Positions 12,224-61,134 of a stretch of 64,000 bases of DNA are shown here, one piece after another. The notes below the pieces were generated by a model that did not search any database, was not told where the DNA came from, and saw nothing but the letters and a program-made list of their open reading frames with translations. Origin of the DNA: Hyphomicrobiales bacterium (GTDB lineage: Bacteria > Pseudomonadota > Alphaproteobacteria > Rhizobiales > JAJFHB01). Where the stretch lies: NCBI GenBank assembly GCA_021775755.1, contig JAJFHE010000059.1, positions 62,001-126,000 of the forward strand. The letters are read 5' to 3'. Numbering within the stretch: position 1 is the first letter of the stretch; each line of letters begins with the position of its first letter. A program made the translations under genes and the position numbers.

Positions 12224-14647
12224 TCAGACCCAGCGTCGGCCCGGCAGGGCGGCGCGGGCCGCTTCGATTATGGCGCGCTGATCGATACGGTGATAGCCGT
12301 AAAGATCATCGATCGTACCGGTCTGGCCGAAATGCTCCACGCCAAGCGCGTGAACCTTGTGGCCGTGCACCGCGCCAAGCCATGAGAGCGCTGTGGGATG
12401 CCCGTCGGTAACCGTGACAATGCCGGCCTCGCGCGACAGCGGCGCCAGCAGCCGCTCAACATAGGACGGATCGTTCTGTTGCCCATGCTGCTGTGCGGTT
12501 TGTCCGGCCTTCCAACCGGCGTTGAGGCGGTCGGCTGATGTTATAGCGAGAAGACCCGCACCGGGAACCTCCTGCAGGATCTTGCCCATGGCCGAGGCGG
12601 CTTCAAGCGCCACGACACCTGTATAGACAATGGCAAGCTGGGTCCCGGGTGCTGGTTCGCGCATCCAGTAGCCGCCCTGGATGATGCTTTCGCGCAGATC
12701 CGAATCGATTGGGCGTAGCGGCTGGTCGAGCGAACGGGTTGAAAGGCGCAGGTAAACCGAACCGCCATCGCGCTCATGCAGCCAGTCATCGCCGGGGCCG
12801 GTATGGCGCGGCTCTCTTTGAATGTACTCAAACGCCCATTGCATGATTACTGCGAGTTCGTCGACGAATGACGGTTCAAACGTGGCGATGCCGTCCTGCG
12901 CCATGCCGATCAGCGGTGTGCCGATTGACTGGTGAGCGCCGCCTTCCGGCGCCAGCGTGATGCCCGAGGGCGTGGCCGCGAGAATAAAGCGTGCGTCCTG
13001 GTAACAGGCATAGTTCAGCGCATCGAGGCCGCGTTGTATGAACGGGTCGTAGACGGTGCCGACCGGCAGCAGTCGCTCGCCGAAAATATCATGTGCAAGA
13101 CCGGCGGCGGCGAGCAGGGTGAATAGGTTGTTTTCCGCAATGCCAAGCTCGATGTGCTGGCCGCCCGGTCCCGCCGACCAGCGCTGCGCCGACATCAGCT
13201 TGCGGGTTTGAAATACATCCTCGCGATCGTCCTTGGCGAACACACCGCGGCGGTTGACCCAGGGGCCGAGATTGGTCGAGACGGTGACGTCGGGAGAGGT
13301 TGTGACGATGCGTTCGGCAAGTTCGCTGTCCTGGCGCGCAATCTGATCGAGGATCTTGCCGAAGCCTTCCTGTGTCGACATGGCGCCGCGGATTTCGGGA
13401 ACCGTCAGCTCACCGACCGGGATCTGCGGCGCGTGCTGGCGGCGCGGTCCCTTTGAGTTGAAGGGAACTTCGTTCAAAAACGCCTCGATCTCATCGCGGC
13501 TGCGTTGCAGGCCGGAATACTTGTCCCATTCTTCGCCTTCCAGCACCTGGCTTTTGTCTCGGAAAACCGCCATCTGGTCGGGCGTCATAAGGCCCGCGTG
13601 GTTGTCTTTGTGTCCCGCAAGCGGCAGCCGATGCCCCTTGATCGTGTAGCAGATGAAACAAACTGGGCGGTCGTCGCCGGCGGCGGCGAACGCGTCGAGG
13701 ACCGTTTCCATGCAATGACCGCCAAGATCGGTCATCAGACCGGCAAGGGCGCCGTCGTTGTAGGTGTCGATGAGCGTCAGGGTATCGCTGTGCTCTGCAA
13801 GATCGGAATGTAACTGGGCGCGCCAGGCGCTGCCCCCCTGAAACGTCAGGGCCGCATAGAGCGAATTCGGGCAATCGTCTATCCACGTGCGCAGCGCATC
13901 GCCGCCGGGCCGCTCGAAGGCTTCGCGCAATTTTCGCCCATGCTTCAGCGTGACGACATCCCACCCCATGTTCTCGAATGTGGTTTCGAGTTTTGGGAAC
14001 ATTCGGTCGGTAATCACCGCGTCCAGGCTCTGGCGATTGTAGTCGATGATCCACCAGGTGTTGCGAAGGCCGTATTTCCAGCCCTCGATCAGGGCTTCGT
14101 AGATATTGCCTTCGTCGAGTTCCGCATCGCCGATGAGCGCGACCATGCGGCCTTCCGGCCAGCCGGACATCCAGCCCTTGGCGCGGATGTAATCCTGCAC
14201 GATGCTCGCGAAGGAGGTCATCGCGACTCCCATTCCGACCGAGCCGGTGGAAAAGTCGACGTCGTCGACATCCTTCGTGCGCGAGGGATAGGACTGCGCG
14301 CCGCCAAGTGCCCGGAACGCTTTCAACTTGTCGAGCGTCTGGTTGCCGAACAGATACTGGATTGCATGGAACACGGGGCTCGCATGCGGCTTAACGGCGA
14401 CGCGATCCTGCGGCCGCAGTATGGAAAAATAAAGCGCCGTCATGATCGTGGCTATCGAGGCGGAGGAAGCCTGATGACCGCCGACTTTCAGACCGTCGGT
14501 GTTCGGCCGCACGTGATTGGCGTTGTGAACAATCTGGGCGGCAAGAAACAGCACCTTGCGCTCAAGGTCTTTCAGCATTTCGAGGGAAGGATATGCAGAG
14601 TTTTCGGCGACCGCTGTTTTGGCTGCGCTTTGAGAGGGAGGTGTCAT
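12224..14647 (-). CDS. Thiamine-diphosphate 2-oxoacid dehydrogenase E1, homodimeric (AceE/MdeB-like)
   Basis: 807 aa, somewhat shorter than AceE (~890 aa). DGLKVGGHQASSASI is the conserved N-terminal substrate-channel region. GDAELDEGNIYEAL plus the later NTWWIIDYNRQSLD is the ThDP motif (GDG-type, here GDA, to N). The pyrimidine domain follows with IELGIAENNLFTLLAAAGL, where Glu contacts ThDP. It overlaps the threonine dehydratase stop by 4 bp (ATGA), implying coupled translation. Since that enzyme makes 2-oxobutyrate, the likely substrate is 2-oxobutyrate, as proposed for Pseudomonas MdeB. Pyruvate remains possible. No E2/E3 gene is nearby. Confidence 0.72.
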   Translation of the reverse strand: MTPPSQSAAKTAVAENSAYPSLEMLKDLERKVLFLAAQIVHNANHVRPNTDGLKVGGHQASSASIATIMTALYFSILRPQDRVAVKPHASPVFHAIQYLFGNQTLDKLKAFRALGGAQSYPSRTKDVDDVDFSTGSVGMGVAMTSFASIVQDYIRAKGWMSGWPEGRMVALIGDAELDEGNIYEALIEGWKYGLRNTWWIIDYNRQSLDAVITDRMFPKLETTFENMGWDVVTLKHGRKLREAFERPGGDALRTWIDDCPNSLYAALTFQGGSAWRAQLHSDLAEHSDTLTLIDTYNDGALAGLMTDLGGHCMETVLDAFAAAGDDRPVCFICYTIKGHRLPLAGHKDNHAGLMTPDQMAVFRDKSQVLEGEEWDKYSGLQRSRDEIEAFLNEVPFNSKGPRRQHAPQIPVGELTVPEIRGAMSTQEGFGKILDQIARQDSELAERIVTTSPDVTVSTNLGPWVNRRGVFAKDDREDVFQTRKLMSAQRWSAGPGGQHIELGIAENNLFTLLAAAGLAHDIFGERLLPVGTVYDPFIQRGLDALNYACYQDARFILAATPSGITLAPEGGAHQSIGTPLIGMAQDGIATFEPSFVDELAVIMQWAFEYIQREPRHTGPGDDWLHERDGGSVYLRLSTRSLDQPLRPIDSDLRESIIQGGYWMREPAPGTQLAIVYTGVVALEAASAMGKILQEVPGAGLLAITSADRLNAGWKAGQTAQQHGQQNDPSYVERLLAPLSREAGIVTVTDGHPTALSWLGAVHGHKVHALGVEHFGQTGTIDDLYGYHRIDQRAIIEAARAALPGRRWV

Positions 14648-49263: not shown

Positions 49264-50349
49264 CTAAAGCCAGCGATCCAGTACGTCCAAATGCTCTTGA
49301 ACATCACCTATGGCAGTGCTTATCCATTCACGATTGTAGTATGTCTCTAAGTACCGCTCTCCGCTGTCGCACATCAAGGTTACAATCGATCCACTCTGGC
49401 TCTTGTTGATCATGTCCTCTGCGATGAGCAATGCGCCCCAAAGATTCGTCCCCGTGGAGGCGCCCGCTTTGCGGCCGATGAGCTTGTTCAGCCAATGGAT
49501 CGCAGCGATGCTAGCGGCGTCCGGTACCTTTATCATGTCATCGATCACGTCGGGCTGAAATGATTTCTCAACCCTCGGCCTCCCGATGCCTTCAATCCGG
49601 CTGGAGCAATCTGCCGTCAGAGTACGATCCTTCTGAACATAGCTATCGTAAAATACCGAGTTTTCAGGATCCACGACGGTCAATCGCGTGTCGTATCCCT
49701 TGTAACGGATATAGCGTCCGAGGGTTGCAGAGGTGCCGCCTGTCCCCGCACTCATGACAAGCGCATGCGGAACCGGGTGAGGCTCTTGTTGCATCTGCAA
49801 GAATACGCTTTCAGCTATGTTGTTGTTTCCACGCCAGTCCGTCGCACGTTCGGCATATTTGAACTGATCCATGAAATAGCCGCTGGTTTCTTGCGCCAGA
49901 CCAACTGCCGTGTCGTGCATTTGAGGAGCGCTTTCCACAAAATGACATTGCCCACCATAGAGTGTGATTTCGTCAATCTTGCTTTGGGCCGTACTGCGCG
50001 GCATGACGGCAACAAATGGCAGGCCAAGCATCTTGGCGAAATACGCTTCCGAAACGGCTGTGCTGCCGGACGACGCCTCAACCACTGTCGTCGTTTCGTC
50101 AAGCTTGCCGTTGCACAAGGCGTAGAGGAACAATGACCGGGCCAGGCGATGCTTCAGGCTTCCTGTCGGATGGGTGCTCTCGTCCTTGAGATAGAGATCG
50201 ACGTTTTTGAGACGAGGGATTGCCAGCTTGAACAAGTGCGTATCTGCGGAACGTTGATAGTCCGCTTCGATTTTCCGTACTGCCTCGGCGACCCACCTTC
50301 GCATTCCAAATACTCGTTTATCCTTATCGATGGGCGGCAGCCTTAGCAT
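49264..50349 (-). CDS. PLP-dependent cysteine synthase/desulfhydrase-family protein
   Basis: 361 aa from ATG 50349. [20 protein letters not shown] contains the PLP lysine (TGSLKHR in place of the cysteine synthase SVKDR type), [20 protein letters not shown] is the substrate/PLP-phosphate loop, and [20 protein letters not shown] is the glycine loop. The length and the SLKH motif fit the Cds1-type L-cysteine desulfhydrase subgroup better than CysK. Its codon use is more AT-rich than neighbours, and it lies between family B repeat ends, which suggests transfer. Confidence 0.75.
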
Positions 50350-50458
50350 TCGCAAAGGGATGCTGTCTATCGGACCGCAGTCTCACCAGAATCAAGAAGT
50401 CGGCTGTCTGCAGTCCGGAAAAATCTACTCCGGTCCGATGGTGGAAAATGGCACCAAA

Positions 50459-50718
50459 TACCAAGGTCGGCAGTTATTGACCCGTTTCACCGGGATGATT
50501 TTACCCTCCGGCAAGGCGCGTACTGCGCCGCGGTACAGGTACCATAAGCAGTACGTAACGCTGCTGGAGGGCAAAAGCACCCGGCCTGCGGTGGGCCATT
50601 CCGGCCCGTCGACCGCGTTGCGGGCCTTGTCCGATACACCGCATCGCACTGCGGCCCGCGCCTCGTCGAGCGAGCCGGAATGGCTAATGAAATGGGTCAA
50701 TAATTGCCGCCCTTGGTA
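50459..50718. repeat. Family B palindromic mobile-like repeat, full copy (260 bp)
   Basis: Ends TACCAAGGTCGGCAGTTATT (left) and the reverse complement of TACCAAGGGCGGCAATTATT (right) extend to TGACCC-TTTCA, an inverted repeat of ~31 bp with about three mismatches. TA at both outer edges would fit a TA target duplication. The interior (GGCAAGGCGCGTACTGCGCC, CTGGAGGGCAAAAGCACCCG, TCCGATACACCGCATCGCAC) is nearly identical to the truncated copy at 60909 and related in its right half to family A. No gene fits inside. It fills most of the 50350-50864 gap; the remainder holds nothing recognised. Confidence 0.85.
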
Positions 50719-51502: not shown

Positions 51503-51534
51503 GGCAGCGCTCCGGCATTCGCCTCAATTTAATA

Positions 51535-51549
51535 TAGTTCCATTTGGAA
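51535..51549. promoter_or_regulatory. MarR-type operator AGTTCCATTTGGAAC
   Basis: GTTCCA-TT-TGGAAC (6-bp arms) lies within a wider AT-rich symmetry (TATA on the left, AATATAG on the right), between the divergent methyltransferase remnant and marR. It is 76 bases before the marR start. The form is close to operators described for MarR regulators of aromatic-acid CoA-ligase genes. Confidence 0.6.
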
Positions 51550-51624
51550 CAATATAGCGGTACAGTTCATTTGCCGACAAGCGATTTATCAAACGTGGCA
51601 TTACGTATTTCTGGAAAGCGACCC

Positions 51625-52149
51625 ATGACATCTGACCCCGACCTTCCAGCAGCCTCACCGACATCCCGGGATGGATCGATGGATCCAACGCATATATTCG
51701 ATGTGGTGGAGTTCCGCGACGCCTATAGGATCTCCTATCTGGCCAACGCGATTGTCTTGCCTGGTTATGATGCCGTGACGAAGGAGTTCGGCCTGATCCG
51801 GGGAGAGTACTTGCTGATCCTGTGCCTGGCGCATTACACGGAGCTGACCGCGCAGGAGGTGGCGCGCCTAACCCGACGACCGCGCAATTCGATCTCTCGC
51901 GCTGTCCATCGCATGGTCGCGGAAGGCCATATCGAACGCACACCGGACCCTGACGATGGTCGACAGGCGAGACTGACGATCACGTCTGCCGGGCGTGGGT
52001 TACACAAAAAGATAGTGGAGGTGTTTCTTCGATGTCAGGAGGAAATTCTTGCGCCGCTGACGGAAACGGAACGTCAGGTTCTAAATCGGTTGCTCGACAA
52101 ACTTGTACGACACACAGCCAACTCGAGCGACGCAAGGATTGCCTCGTGA
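51625..52149 (+). CDS. MarR-family regulator
   Basis: 174 aa from ATG 51625. YLLILCLAHYTELTAQEVAR starts the winged-helix, RRPRNSISRAVHRMVAEGHI is the recognition helix, and RTPDPDDGRQARLTITSAGR is the wing with its DDGR motif. It begins a same-strand run of four genes (ligase, MetE-like, acyl-CoA dehydrogenase) with gaps of 26, 4 and 18 bp. MarR proteins next to acyl-CoA ligases commonly sense the CoA thioester product, so it is the likely repressor of this cassette. Confidence 0.88.
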   Translation: MTSDPDLPAASPTSRDGSMDPTHIFDVVEFRDAYRISYLANAIVLPGYDAVTKEFGLIRGEYLLILCLAHYTELTAQEVARLTRRPRNSISRAVHRMVAEGHIERTPDPDDGRQARLTITSAGRGLHKKIVEVFLRCQEEILAPLTETERQVLNRLLDKLVRHTANSSDARIAS

Positions 52150-52175
52150 CGTCTCTCATATCGGAGTAACTTGCC

Positions 52176-53816
52176 ATGCGCGGACTGATGCAGCAGCACA
52201 GACTGACCATCACGAGTGTCATTGACTACGCCGAAACGGTCTATGGAGATGTGGAGGTCGTATCGCGCACGATCGAAGGGCCGCTTCATCGGTACGGCTA
52301 CCGTGACTGCGCGCGCCGGGCTCGTCAGTTCGCTCATGCGCTCGAACGCCTTGGTATCAAGTCCGGTGACCGCGTCGGCGGAGCATCCTGGAATCACTAC
52401 CGCTATCTCGAAACCTTTTTCGGAGCCGCCGGCGTCGGCGCCATTTTGCACACCATCAATCCGCGGCTTTTTGCCGAGCAGCTCGTCTACACGGTCAATC
52501 ACGCGCAAGACCGCTTCATCGTCACCGATGCGGCGTGTCTTCCCATCTTCGAGACGGTGCAGGATCAGCTCGAGACCGTCGAGGGTTTCATCGTGCTGGC
52601 CGCTGCCGCCGACATTCCCGCGACGGGATTGAGCAATATCTACTGCTACGACGAGCTTCTAGAAGGTGCCGACGAGGCCTTCCCCTGGGCCGATGTGGAC
52701 GAGTGGGACGGCTCAGGCCTGTGCTACACCTCCGGCACGACGGGCGATCCCAAAGGTATCCTCTACAGCCATCGAAGCTCCGTCCTCAACGCCCTCGGGT
52801 TCACCACGCCGAACGGCGTCGGCATCGGTTTCAACGATACCTTGATGCCGATCGTGCCGTTCTTTCACGGCAACGGCTGGGGCGTTCCGTTCGCGGCCCC
52901 CATGGCGGGCGCAAAGCTAGTGTTGCCGGGCCGCGAAATGGAAATGAACAAACTGCATGAATTGATTGTCGGCGAAGACGTCACAATCGCACTAGCGGTG
53001 CCGACCGTATGGCTTTCCATGCTCGAGCACTTGCGGGCAACCGGAGCAAATCTGGGCCGGCTCGGCCGAATCGTCACCGGCGGCGCCGCCCCGCCCCGCG
53101 CCATGATCGAAGAACTGGAAGCCCAGTACGGCGTCACCACGTCCCATGCCTGGGGCATGACGGAAACCTCCGCTGCGGTGACCTATTCCCATCCCCCAGA
53201 TGGCGTCGACGATGAGGCGGCGCTCGATGTCCGCTCTACGCAGGGGCGCCCGGTCTATGGCGTGCAGATCAAGGTCGTCGACGAGGACGGTCGGCCTTTG
53301 CCGTGGGACGGCAGTTCTGCCGGCGAACTCAAAGCCAGCGGCTACTGGATCGCCAGTGAGTACTACAAGGCCTCCGACAAACCGGCCGTCGATGCGGATG
53401 GCTGGCTGATCACCGGCGACATCGGCTTCATAGGAGAAGATGGGAATCTACGCCTCACCGACCGCGCCAAAGACGTGATCAAGTCCGGCGGCGAGTGGAT
53501 CAGTTCGATCGATCTGGAGAACGCTGCAGCGGGGCACCCCGACATTGTTGAAGCCGCGGTGATCGCAGTCCCCCATGAACGCTGGCAGGAGCGTCCCTTC
53601 CTGATCGCGGTCCGCCGCCAAGGCAGCGAAGTAACCGCTGCCGACGTTCTGGCCTGGCTTGCCGAGCGCGTTGCAAAGTGGTGGCTGCCGGAAGACGTCG
53701 CCTTCACCAGTGAAATCCCGCACACGGGAACCGGCAAGATCGACAAGGTTGCCTTGCGCAAGCAGTTCGCAGACCGCAATCCCGGGCTTGCAACCGGCCA
53801 ACATGACGAGGATTGA
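52176..53816 (+). CDS. AMP-forming acyl-CoA synthetase (DmdB/FadD-like)
   Basis: 546 aa. [20 protein letters not shown] (~185-204) is the P-loop, [11 protein letters not shown] the central motif, [17 protein letters not shown] the hinge, [16 protein letters not shown] the C-terminal start, and TGTGKIDK (catalytic Lys ~519) the end. It resembles medium-chain and methylmercaptopropionate (DmdB-type) ligases, e.g. the opening [20 protein letters not shown]. Which acid it activates is not readable. It lies 4 bp from a MetE-like gene and in line with an acyl-CoA dehydrogenase. Confidence 0.82.
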
Positions 53817-53820
53817 ATCA

Positions 53821-54840
53821 ATGGATCAACTACCTTTGCTGCCAACGATGGGCGTCGGGAGTTACGCCTCGCCGGGTTGGTTTGTGTTGTTTCGCAGTCA
53901 GATGCGCGATGGCCGGATCGGCTCGGACGACGTCCGCGAAGCGCTTGATGATGCCACAAGGATCGCCGTCCTAGACCAGATCGAGGCAGGCATCGATATT
54001 CTGACGGATGGCGAATTGCGCCGCCAACGCTTCGTCTACGAAATGTTCGACAGCGTGGAGGGGCTGGAACGCGTTGCTCCGGGGCGAAAACTGGGTGTGC
54101 CGGGTTACGATATGGCACCGCATTTCAATGTCGTGGATCCCATTCGATCACCACGAGGTTTCGGTGTTGTCGAGGACTTCGAGGCGCTGCGTGCAGTTGC
54201 GCCGGATCGCGCATTGAAGGTTGCCCTTCCGGGACCATTGACCTTTGCATTACCGCTCAAATCGTCTGGACGCGATGTCGGTGACATTATGGACGAGATC
54301 GCTGCGATGGTGAGTGAAGAAGTGGCGGCGCTGGCTGAGGCCGGTGCCAGCTATATCCAGATCGACGAACCAGCTTTGCCACATCCCCCACTCGGCCTGA
54401 CCCACGCGGAGGCTGCGGCGATCATCAATCGGGTTGTGAGAGGTTTCCCGGGTCGCGTCGGTGTGCATGTCTGCTTTGGCAACAACGCCGGCCGGCCGAT
54501 GGCTGATCGTCGGTTTGATCGTCTGATGGATGCAATGGAGGCGCTGGAATGCGATCAACTGGTTCTGGAATTTGCAAATAGAGAGATGGCGGACGTCAAA
54601 CTCTTGGGTCCGTTGTCCGAAAAGTTCGACATTGCCGCCGGGGTTATCGACGTCAAGAACTTCCATCTTGAAACGATCGAAGAGGTGGCGAACCGCATAC
54701 GCAGGTGCCTTGACTTCGTTCCGGCTGAAAAGTTGAGCATAACGGGCGATTGCGGCTTTTCGGCATTGCCCCGCTATCTCGCGCGCCAGAAGATGCAGGC
54801 TATGGCGGCCGGCGCCCGTGCCGTGCGCGAAACCCTTTGA
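53821..54840 (+). CDS. MetE C-terminal-domain-like methyltransferase
   Basis: 339 aa, from ATG 53821. [10 protein letters not shown] (His ~216, Cys ~218), a Glu in [11 protein letters not shown] (~250), and TGDCGFS (Cys ~310) are the zinc ligands of the cobalamin-independent methionine synthase catalytic barrel. [11 protein letters not shown] is the conserved substrate loop. Only the catalytic half is present; full MetE has a ~400-aa N-terminal domain. It would transfer a methyl group to or from a thiol. It sits between an acyl-CoA ligase and an acyl-CoA dehydrogenase, which is unusual for methionine synthesis. Confidence 0.82.
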
Positions 54841-54858
54841 AACCATCGAGAGCAACGC

Positions 54859-55989
54859 ATGAGACTGAACGAAGAACAGATTTTGATCCGCGACATGGCG
54901 CGGGACTTCTCGCAGCGCGAATTGGCGCCGAAGGCTGCGGAATGGGATGAGAAGGGTGAATTTGCTCCCGGTGTGCTGGAAGGCATGGGCGAGCTCGGCC
55001 TGATGGGAATGTGCGTGCCCGAGAAGTGGGGCGGGGCGGGTGCGGATTTCACTTCCTACAGCCTGGCGATGGAGGAGGTGGCAGCCGGTTGGGCTGCTGC
55101 ATCAACCGTCATGAGTGTCAACAATTCTCCAATGTGCAGCGCGTTGATGGATTGGGGGTCGGACGAGCAAAAGGAGTGCTTCCTGCGCCCCATGGCACAA
55201 GGTGCGGTCGGGTGCTTTTGTCTGACGGAACCACATGCGGGCTCGGACGCTGGTGCGATCAAGGCCCGCGCAGAGCGGCGGGGAAACCATTATGTGCTGA
55301 ACGGGGCAAAGCAATTCATTACGTCCGGCTCTATCGCCGAATACGCATTGGTATTTGCCGTCACGGATCCTGCCGCTGGCAAACGCGGTATTAGCGCGTT
55401 CATCATGCCAACCACCACGGCGGGCTTTAGCGTCGTGGCCAAGGAAAAGAAACTTGGTCAGCGTGCATCCGACACATGTCAGATCGCATTGGACGACGTC
55501 GAAGCCACGCCGGATATGCTCTTGGGCGAAGAAGGACAGGGCTATCGCATTGCGCTCGCCAATCTCGAAGCCGGCCGCGTTGCCGTCGCCGCCCAGGCAA
55601 CAGGCATCGCGCGGGCCGCTCTCGAGGCGGCGACCAGCTATGCAAACCAGCGCGAGACCTTCGGCAAACCAATCATTAATCACCAGGCCGTAGCGTTTCG
55701 GCTTGCCGATATGGCCACCCGGCTCGAGGCGGCGCGACAACTGACGCTCCATGCTGCGCGGTTACGCGATGAAGGTGTGCCATGTATCACCGAAGCAAGC
55801 ATGGCCAAGCTGTTTGCAAGCGAGGCAGCTGAGACCATCTGTTCCGATGCCCTTCAGATCCATGGTGGCTACGGCTATGTCGAGGGCTTCCCCGTTGAGC
55901 GCCTGTATCGCGATGTGCGGATCTGCCAGATCTACGAGGGCACCTCGGATGTCCAGCGCATGGTCATCGGTCGAAGCCTGGCCGAGTGA
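54859..55989 (+). CDS. Acyl-CoA dehydrogenase
   Basis: 376 aa, normal length. CFCLTEPHAGSDAGAIKARA is the FAD/substrate loop, AKQFITSGSIAEYALVFAVT the beta-domain motif, and RICQIYEGTSDVQRMVIGRS the C-terminal signature with the catalytic Glu (~362). YGYVEGFPVERLYRDVR is typical of isobutyryl/short-branched-chain and medium-chain enzymes. It forms an enoyl-CoA from the product of the ligase. It is the last gene of the MarR cassette; no hydratase or thiolase follows. Confidence 0.9.
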   Translation: MRLNEEQILIRDMARDFSQRELAPKAAEWDEKGEFAPGVLEGMGELGLMGMCVPEKWGGAGADFTSYSLAMEEVAAGWAAASTVMSVNNSPMCSALMDWGSDEQKECFLRPMAQGAVGCFCLTEPHAGSDAGAIKARAERRGNHYVLNGAKQFITSGSIAEYALVFAVTDPAAGKRGISAFIMPTTTAGFSVVAKEKKLGQRASDTCQIALDDVEATPDMLLGEEGQGYRIALANLEAGRVAVAAQATGIARAALEAATSYANQRETFGKPIINHQAVAFRLADMATRLEAARQLTLHAARLRDEGVPCITEASMAKLFASEAAETICSDALQIHGGYGYVEGFPVERLYRDVRICQIYEGTSDVQRMVIGRSLAE

Positions 55990-58909: not shown

Positions 58910-59668
58910 TCACGTGGTCTCATAAATGCCCAACCATAAGCGGATTGCCGCGAGCTTGATGAATGCGAGGAAGTTCGCTGCCAGCTTGTCGTAGCGGGTG
59001 GTGATCCGTCGGCAATGCTTGATGCGATTGAAGAACCGCTCCACGTGATTGCGATCTCGGTACAGATGCGGGCTGAAGCAGATCGGGTTTCTCCGGTTTC
59101 GTTTCGGTGGGATGTTTGCCCACGCTCCACGCTCTCGCACAAGTTCCCTGATTGCATCGGAGTCGTAGGCCCAGTCGGCGAGCAGCATGCCGTTGTAGCG
59201 AAGCTCCGTCAGCAGATCGCCGGCAAACAGACCGTCATGGTCTTGACCGGCGCTGAGTGCCAATCGGAGGGGCAATCCTTTGGCGTCGACAACCGCGTGG
59301 ATCTTCGTTGTCAGTCCACCGCGTGACCGTCCCGTGCAGTTGCTCTCGCATTCCTTGACGCAACTTGCATGTTGGTGCACCCGGGCAATTGAGGTGTCGA
59401 GCATCTGAACATCGTCGTCACGTCTGTCCGTCATGGCAGCGAGGATGTTGTCCCGGATGCCTGCCCTGCGCCATCGGTTGAAGCGGTTGTAACAGGTCGT
59501 ATACGGGCCGTAGCATTCGGGCAGATCGCGCCACGGAGCTCCTGAGCGCAACAGCCAGAAGATGCCGTTCAACACAAGCTGGTCGTCAACCCGGGGCACA
59601 CCGCGAGACTTGGTTGGTAGAACAGGTTGGATAATTGACCATTCACGGTCGGTAAGTTCATAGCGCAT
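58910..59668 (-). mobile_element. IS5-family transposase (single ORF)
   Basis: 252 aa, intact. ELTDREWSIIQPVLPTKSRG is the N-terminal DUF4096-like DNA-binding start, MLDTSIARVHQHA has the first catalytic Asp, MLLADWAYDSDAIRELV the second Asp, and RNHVERFFNRIKHCRRITTR the catalytic Glu of the DDE triad. I could not see convincing terminal inverted repeats, so the element's outer limits are not given. It is the only transposase in the window and a possible source of mobility for the short repeats. Confidence 0.88.
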
Positions 59669-60734: not shown

Positions 60735-60908
60735 TGAGCCCCAACCGCGAGGAATTACATAAAACGTAGGTGATTGGCCACTTTGGTAAACGTCTGTAAT
60801 AAAGGCATTTCGATGGTGTAGCTGCCATATTGCCAATGCGATAGAACTCGCCGCCGCCATCGGGTTGAGGGGGGGAGCAAGCGCAAATCAGAAGAATCCG
60901 ATATCTCA

Positions 60909-61134
60909 TACCAAGGGCGGCAATTGTTGACCCGTTTCACCGGGATGATTTTACCCTCCGGCAAGGCGCGTACTGCGCCGCGGTACAGGTACCGTAAGCA
61001 GTACGCAACGCTGCTGGAGGGCAAAAGCACCCGGCCTGCGGTGGGCCATTCCGGCCCGTCGACCACGTTGCGGGCCTTGTCCGATACACCGCATCGCACT
61101 GCGGCCCGCGCCTCGTCGAGCGTGCCGGAGTGGC
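60909..61134. repeat. Family B palindromic mobile-like repeat, truncated copy
   Basis: The left terminal repeat TACCAAGGGCGGCAATTGTT begins at 60909 and the body is nearly identical to 50459-50718. Identity stops at GTGCCGGAGTGGC (61134); the right terminal repeat is missing. The gap continues to the SCO-like stop at 61165 with a GGGTC-C-TGACCC inverted repeat. Confidence 0.8.

Follow-up and report, generated by a model that had tools for sequence, protein, structure and literature searches.

What is one half of a methionine synthase doing between two enzymes of acid catabolism? The question is raised by a 64,000-nucleotide stretch of DNA from a Hyphomicrobiales bacterium (genome G000; contig JAJFHE010000059.1, positions 62,001 to 126,000), hereafter the window, in which a gene for a protein resembling the catalytic half of the methionine synthase MetE lies between genes for an acyl-coenzyme A (acyl-CoA) ligase and an acyl-CoA dehydrogenase. 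The features concerned are:

52176 to 53816, plus strand: acyl-CoA ligase related to 3-methylthiopropionyl-CoA ligase (DmdB type); AMP-binding domain, 237 bits, plus AMP-binding_C.
53821 to 54840, plus strand: core-MetE-like zinc enzyme of 339 amino acids, catalytic half only; Meth_synt_2 domain, 102 bits, residues 7-332.
54859 to 55989, plus strand: short-chain-type acyl-CoA dehydrogenase of 376 amino acids; acyl-CoA dehydrogenase N, M and C-terminal Pfam domains.
52176 to 55989, plus strand: conserved three-gene unit (ligase, MetE-like enzyme, dehydrogenase), matched by blastn to loci L034 and L035.

A gene for a MarR-family regulator precedes the ligase gene, and a first-pass annotation of the window had described all four as a same-strand cassette with gaps of 4-26 bp. 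Strand and spacing are borne out (all four on the plus strand; gaps of 26, 4 and 18 bp), and the Pfam domains of all four proteins score above gathering thresholds. The cassette itself shrinks to three genes: ligase, MetE-like and dehydrogenase genes recur together at L034 and L035, two loci in metagenome-assembled genomes (MAGs), and the MarR gene stands outside the unit. Our answer to the opening question, favoured but held tentatively, is that the trio could be a horizontally transferred catabolic unit in which a short acid is activated and desaturated and a methyl group is passed to homocysteine.

Is the trio a unit at all? Between the window and L035 blastn finds a sole match, of 78.3% identity over 3805 bp (window 52186-55986, L035 6365-10166), and the match to L034 is likewise single (78.0%). 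The L035 match ends within 10 bp of the ligase start and of the dehydrogenase stop, and the flanks are unrelated; beyond the trio, tblastx finds a weak match between a Cds1-like gene of the window and a cystathionine synthase gene of the MAG, and very short pieces only. Between the window and the two MAG loci the proteins are 76-78% (ligase; 77-78% by tblastn), 88% (MetE-like) and 90% (dehydrogenase) identical, and the window's gaps of 4 and 18 bp within the trio compare with 14 and 18 bp in the MAGs. The ratio of nonsynonymous to synonymous substitution rates (dN/dS) is about 0.06 for each gene. With dS close to 1 or higher, and higher than 2 for the ligase, this figure is rough; the trio seems to be under purifying selection.

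The MAGs that host L034 and L035 look gammaproteobacterial. Their RpoB proteins are 67-68% identical to that of Escherichia coli, versus 59% for the RpoB of G000, and 61% identical to the latter over about 1130 residues. On the trio contig of one MAG, G483, the tetranucleotide profiles of the flanks show a correlation of 0.88-0.89 with the bin's own rpoB contig (0.88-0.90 with the bin), versus 0.78-0.80 with the G000 rpoB contig and 0.82-0.86 with a second G000 stretch; the cassette on that contig, 3.8 kb only, is nearer to G000 (0.80 and 0.85) than to its own bin (0.74), a composition that would fit an alphaproteobacterial donor. Against a transfer stand the narrowest tetranucleotide comparison, which separates own bin from G000 by 0.88 versus 0.86, and a misbinning of the two related MAGs, a weak alternative that we consider unlikely. 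The best reading of these sequence comparisons is that the trio moved horizontally between classes as a block. We take it to be a real unit under selection, bounded at gene ends and present in hosts of two apparent classes.

How far does this unit extend? A contig scan by exact peptide patterns, not exhaustive, yielded 45 loci of the MetE-like family, and relatives of the ligase and the dehydrogenase (>75% identity) adjoin the MetE-like gene in two of them, L034 and L035. Among the loci searched, the three-gene order occurs three times when the window is included, and the four-gene order, whose conservation across genomes the first-pass annotation had raised, was seen once, in the window itself. 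The pair of ligase and dehydrogenase is absent from the flanks (up to 1.5 kb) of the 14 other same-class genomes with a MetE-like gene of at least 54% identity (385 searched); a 33% ligase match upstream of the MetE-like gene at L014 is the sole case among these 14. Across 101 genomes of the order, no ligase of more than 52% identity is found outside G000 among the matches listed (at most 14 candidates per genome). Of four genomes of the window's family, G000 alone has a MetE-like gene above 30% identity, which fits a transfer, though two of the others are only 61% and 71% complete. L074 was not counted as a trio: its dehydrogenase (66% identity) lies 6.7 kb from the MetE-like gene, with genes for an aldolase, an integrase, a shikimate kinase and a dehydroquinate synthase in between.

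What does the central enzyme retain of MetE? The functional residues given for MetE in PMC7857596 are the zinc ligands H641, C643, E665 and C726 and the homocysteine residues S433, E484 and D599. Assigned after that paper, the zinc ligands of the window protein are H216, C218, E250 and C311, a full set as first described, and its homocysteine-binding positions are S14, E65 and D182. None of the seven varies among the 42 aligned members (the window protein and 41 of the 45 loci; alignment and tree omit L062, with unknown residues, and the truncated L044, L076 and L078). Because these residues are kept, the enzyme's amino-acid partner is likely to be homocysteine or methionine. Also as first described, the protein contains Meth_synt_2 only and lacks Meth_synt_1, the N-terminal folate-binding half of MetE. 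In the G000 genome the sole Meth_synt_1 match is the MetE-like gene itself, below cut-off, in a search whose control matched 10 of the 14 named genomes. Nine NCBIfam methionine-synthase models match the protein, all of them below cut-off (best 212 against 406).

The family also has features of its own. N221, N222, R225, N253, R254 and K279 are likewise clade-invariant; N222 and R225 are matched by none of the references compared, and N221 and K279 are common to EtnE and a paralogue, C49. By EtnE is meant a plasmid protein of Nocardioides JS614 which, by name and function, we take to be the epoxyalkane:coenzyme M (CoM) transferase. At the homocysteine S and E positions this protein has N and K, and two MesD references and one split MetE catalytic subunit keep S and E. 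An invariant stretch, FGNN with R225, follows the zinc ligands H216 and C218, with loop 222-224 modelled at low confidence. The structure model, from a job that took in 28 family sequences, has a predicted local distance difference test score of 88.3; its best structural match is 3RPD (Z 38.0, root-mean-square deviation 2.4 over 317 residues), followed by MetE catalytic halves. 3RPD, which contains selenomethionine, is a MesD protein according to PMC7857596. In a tree of 65 rows, MesA, MesB and MesC sequences not among them, the 42 members form a separate clade (support 97/94), apart from MesD, EtnE and a second clade at 34-37% identity; long branches make the places of EtnE and C49 unsure. 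Plasmid relatives are all less than 60% identical (350 of 350 records), and G000 holds three further MetE-like paralogues at 21-28% identity.

More specific identities were tried and rejected. The protein is only 32% and 31% identical to two DUF1852-adjacent MesD references (ACIAD3523 not among them), versus the roughly 55% or more expected of a MesD. No gene for MesX (DUF1852), a protein called uncharacterised in PMC7857596, is among the window's four genes; a genome search for MesX matched none of 15 genomes, but its control likewise matched nowhere, so this result does not establish absence from the genomes. A split MetE is rejected on residues, on the tree and on the finding of no separate N-terminal subunit gene in G000, and an epoxyalkane:CoM transferase on the presence of S14 and E65 and on the separate clade, with the CoM meaning of N and K drawn from one sequence.

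Other MetE-like genes provide two observations of their own. At L091 (9634-12857), another G000 MetE-like paralogue is divergent to genes for PhnW (2-aminoethylphosphonate transaminase) and PhnX (phosphonoacetaldehyde hydrolase), both above cut-off. On plasmid pUSP2 of Aminobacter sp. MSH1 (L106, 4257-9900), a MetE-like gene of 34% identity stands with genes for a CocE hydrolase, a citryl-CoA lyase, a CaiB CoA-transferase and an extradiol dioxygenase, and this run is, by predicted function, a further catabolic MetE-like operon.

How might the three enzymes work together? The ligase would activate a short acid to its CoA thioester, with 3-methylthiopropionate as the leading candidate, and the dehydrogenase would desaturate the product; the MetE-like zinc enzyme would then act as a homocysteine methyltransferase, making methionine via a zinc thiolate with a methyl drawn either directly from the S-methyl of the acid or from a carrier that this methyl has charged. 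We infer which acid is used, what donates the methyl, the direction of transfer and the sequence of the steps; methyl transfer, which rests on residues and co-transfer, appears the most likely role of the MetE-like enzyme. The closest solved relatives of the ligase are 6IHK and 6IJB, presumably both DmdB, a 3-methylthiopropionate-CoA ligase. Those of the dehydrogenase are 4U83, 4M9A, 4N5F and 5LNX, then short-chain acyl-CoA dehydrogenases, and its Glu360, presumably the catalytic residue, sits in IYEGTSDVQ, the usual C-terminal motif. Given these ligase relatives and the short-chain kind of the dehydrogenase, the substrate is likely a short acid and possibly a methylated one. The first-pass annotation had proposed that the pathway handles a methylated acid and that the MetE-like enzyme takes up the methyl or methanethiol group. 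That idea is plausible, if unproven: the residues speak for homocysteine as the likely thiol partner and the three enzymes appear to be a real unit, and both acid and methyl donor are at the stage of proposals. Overall, the apparent co-transfer of the three genes suggests that small-acid breakdown is tied to making or using methionine.

A number of findings weigh against this pathway. NF005426, the 3-(methylthio)propionyl-CoA ligase model, is the ligase's second-best and by that rank favours the pathway, but the score of 669 bits is below the cut-off of 822; the ligase's top model, a fatty-acid ligase subfamily, is also below cut-off (671 against 766), and the only one passed is NF004837, a general long-chain fatty-acid ligase subfamily (533 against 476). 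In R. lacuscaerulensis, according to PMC7157515, homologues of DmdB show a higher affinity for acetate, propionate, valerate or butyrate. The best NCBIfam model of the dehydrogenase is acryloyl-CoA reductase, below cut-off at 402 against 640, and no hydratase, demethylase or corrinoid protein is encoded inside the trio. Chemically, thioethers donate methyl groups poorly if they are not activated. The trio has been seen in only three places, two of them in related MAGs, and in 26 of 43 loci (L076 and L078 left out of the count) the MetE-like gene has no co-directional neighbour within 110 bp. Since the family is mostly solitary, its enzyme could work without a ligase or a dehydrogenase.

In the remaining loci the MetE-like gene shares its run with acid-, amide- or flavin-linked enzymes (7 of 43) or with other or unannotated neighbours (10 of 43); these counts are approximate, because the gene caller misses the L034/L035 dehydrogenase and because L044, L062 and L073 lie at locus ends. 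In all five of the loci nearest by tree path (L034-L038), the run includes enzymes linked to acids, amides or flavins, a point in favour of the proposed pathway: a luciferase-like monooxygenase gene stands one or two genes 5′ of the MetE-like gene at L036 and L037, and L038 has a ligase, a luciferase-like monooxygenase and a MaoC hydratase; MaoC is also found at L048. A general conserved neighbourhood of the family was looked for across loci and none was found. One locus group has two opposite-strand acyl-CoA dehydrogenases followed by genes that, by eye, resemble those for malate dehydrogenase and succinyl-CoA synthetase, and these recurrent neighbours look like shared synteny. Separately, L036 (5570-13409) has genes for a glutathione S-transferase and an acyl-CoA dehydrogenase a few kb from the MetE-like gene, the dehydrogenase being close to cyclohexanecarboxyl-CoA dehydrogenase (527, cut-off 575) and flanked by two short-chain dehydrogenase/reductase genes; at L037 (4579-13584) a dehydrogenase is matched at 12460-13584, and one gene there groups with the L036 glutathione S-transferase.

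A bolder form of the pathway, which we regard as a long shot, is a methyl-saving route in which the MetE-like enzyme would demethylate methylthioacryloyl-CoA onto homocysteine to give methionine, with no release of methanethiol. The S-methyl group of this intermediate would be activated as a vinylogous thioester, and its demethylation is chemically reasonable. More broadly, the clade would be a plug-in homocysteine methyltransferase supplied with methyl groups by different catabolic operons, with ligase and dehydrogenase in one setting and luciferase-like monooxygenase and MaoC in another.

Could the MetE-like enzyme instead serve methionine synthesis proper? On this account, the best of the alternatives though somewhat unlikely in our view, it would be an accessory core methionine synthase that receives methyl groups from a corrinoid protein or another carrier, as MesA/MesB and MesD are, and the ligase and dehydrogenase would be an ordinary short-chain acid pair that co-travels for regulation. 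Core methionine synthases accept methylcobalamin in vitro (PMC7005905), the relatives of the MetE-like gene are mostly solitary, and the ligase passes a general fatty-acid model. The host itself may be relevant. No MetH activation domain was found in G000, which has a betaine-homocysteine methyltransferase and a pterin-binding methyltransferase above cut-off and an MtgC-like corrinoid protein and an activase below. G000 seems, from these genes, to make methionine by a split corrinoid-dependent system, and the split methionine synthase of Ruegeria has comparable parts (PMC12478193). On the other side, no corrinoid protein is found among the annotated neighbours, and the MetH activation domain is present in 14 of 14 other carriers of the MetE-like gene tested, some matches being partial, so that a further synthase is not obviously needed there. 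The transfer of exactly three genes between distant hosts suggests more than co-regulation. A role as the sole methionine synthase of G000 was set aside: the split-synthase parts in G000 resemble those of Ruegeria/Phaeobacter, and the other carriers have the MetH domain. As an observation apart, two G000 loci (L109, 3798-8858; L111, 3158-8376) contain genes for a betaine-homocysteine methyltransferase, an MtgC-like protein, a pterin methyltransferase, an activase and an MttB-like protein, some below cut-off.

The sulfur-amino-acid genes around the trio bear on the homocysteine link and on a further alternative. Adjoining the trio at L035 are genes for a cystathionine beta-synthase (462.6 bits in a shortened frame, cut-off 510), a cystathionine gamma-lyase/synthase (468, cut-off 513) and a cysteine desulfurase-like protein (358, cut-off 377). 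Farther out on the G483 contig are MetY (655, cut-off 495), MetA (453, cut-off 358) and betaine-homocysteine methyltransferase (470, cut-off 338), within about 23 kb of the trio on both MAG contigs. All six have relatives of 77-94% identity on the G482 contig, the gamma-lyase being cut by the contig end. In the window a gene with at most a possible tie to the unit lies about 1.3 kb before the MarR gene:

49264 to 50355, minus strand: L-cysteine desulfhydrase (Cds1-like); NF052478, 553 bits, cut-off 600.

The surroundings in the MAGs fit a homocysteine link. The first-pass annotation had treated methionine-biosynthesis neighbours as a warning sign; such genes are present in the two MAGs, outside the trio, and elsewhere the MetE-like gene is mostly solitary. 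The presence of cystathionine enzymes beside the trio at L034 and L035 would also suit a zinc thiol alkyltransferase that couples homocysteine to a pathway electrophile, such as an enoyl-CoA, without methyl transfer. Epoxyalkane:CoM transferase is a catabolic member of the same family, its JS614 gene adjoins monooxygenase and CoA-enzyme genes, and EtnE shares N221 and K279 with the clade. The clade is, however, not grouped with EtnE (on a long branch of unsure place) and keeps S14 and E65 as methionine synthases do, and we judge an alkyltransferase improbable. Least probable of all, if only slightly, is that the grouping is biochemically meaningless and three independent genes were transferred together by chance, as the solitary state of the family in most loci and an order known from three places might allow, but the tight spacing is kept, dN/dS is low in all three genes and the flanks differ.

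How does the preferred catabolic unit compare with known systems? Like the core methionine synthases MesA-MesD (PMC7857596), its MetE-like protein consists of the MetE catalytic half only, with zinc and homocysteine residues kept; unlike MesD, it belongs to a separate clade, has no MesX gene in its unit and is found in acid-catabolism operons. It is a new variation on the core-MetE theme. PGA1_c27430 of Phaeobacter inhibens is likewise a MetE-like protein without the folate domain and with no methyl donor assigned, and its deletion did not abolish the shortening of the lag phase that depends on dimethylsulfoniopropionate (PMC12366255). The succession of ligase and acyl-CoA dehydrogenase resembles DmdB-DmdC of dimethylsulfoniopropionate demethylation (PMC7157515), from which the trio differs in a ligase below the equivalog cut-off, a dehydrogenase of short-chain kind (376 amino acids), the lack of DmdD and DmdA in the unit and the extra MetE-like gene. 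A MetE-type zinc enzyme within a catabolic operon is a trait shared with epoxyalkane:CoM transferase (EtnE/XecA), of which the single sequence compared has N and K in place of the homocysteine-binding S and E. No paper on an operon of this make-up is among the open-access literature matches listed.

For aerobic bacteria it has yet to be settled which methyl donors serve the folate-independent methionine synthases, and the trio, apparently mobile, couples a Mes-like enzyme to two acid-degrading enzymes and so names testable donors. If the donor were a methylthio acid, the unit would represent a new branch of organosulfur degradation that retains methanethiol.

Upstream of the trio in the window lie two further features:

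51532 to 51555, no strand: imperfect dyad, possible operator, 5′ of the MarR gene.
51625 to 52149, plus strand: MarR-family regulator; MarR_2, 49.9 bits, cut-off 27.

The MarR gene has no match above 60 bits among 78 loci and is for that reason placed outside the conserved unit. Its start is uncertain, with in-frame ATG codons at 51625 and 51679; a start at the listed TTG, 51544, would put the beginning of the gene inside the dyad. The palindrome that had been called an operator is present, its arms (51532-51542 and 51545-51555) pairing at 10 of 11 positions around a 2-nt spacer; when the letters of the 198-bp stretch are shuffled 2000 times, 14 shuffles contain an equally good dyad (spacer 0-8), which supports an operator role only modestly. 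The dyad goes with the MarR gene, which is itself not conserved alongside the trio.

Mobile elements are also found nearby. Copies of an element resembling a miniature inverted-repeat transposable element lie at window 50458-50684 and 60908-61134; the repeat is about 265 bp long and carries inverted repeats of about 33 bp at its termini, and it has at least 40 genome matches of at least 140 bp and at least 90% identity (40 of 101 candidates scored), often at contig ends. An IS5-family transposase gene is found at window 58910-59668.

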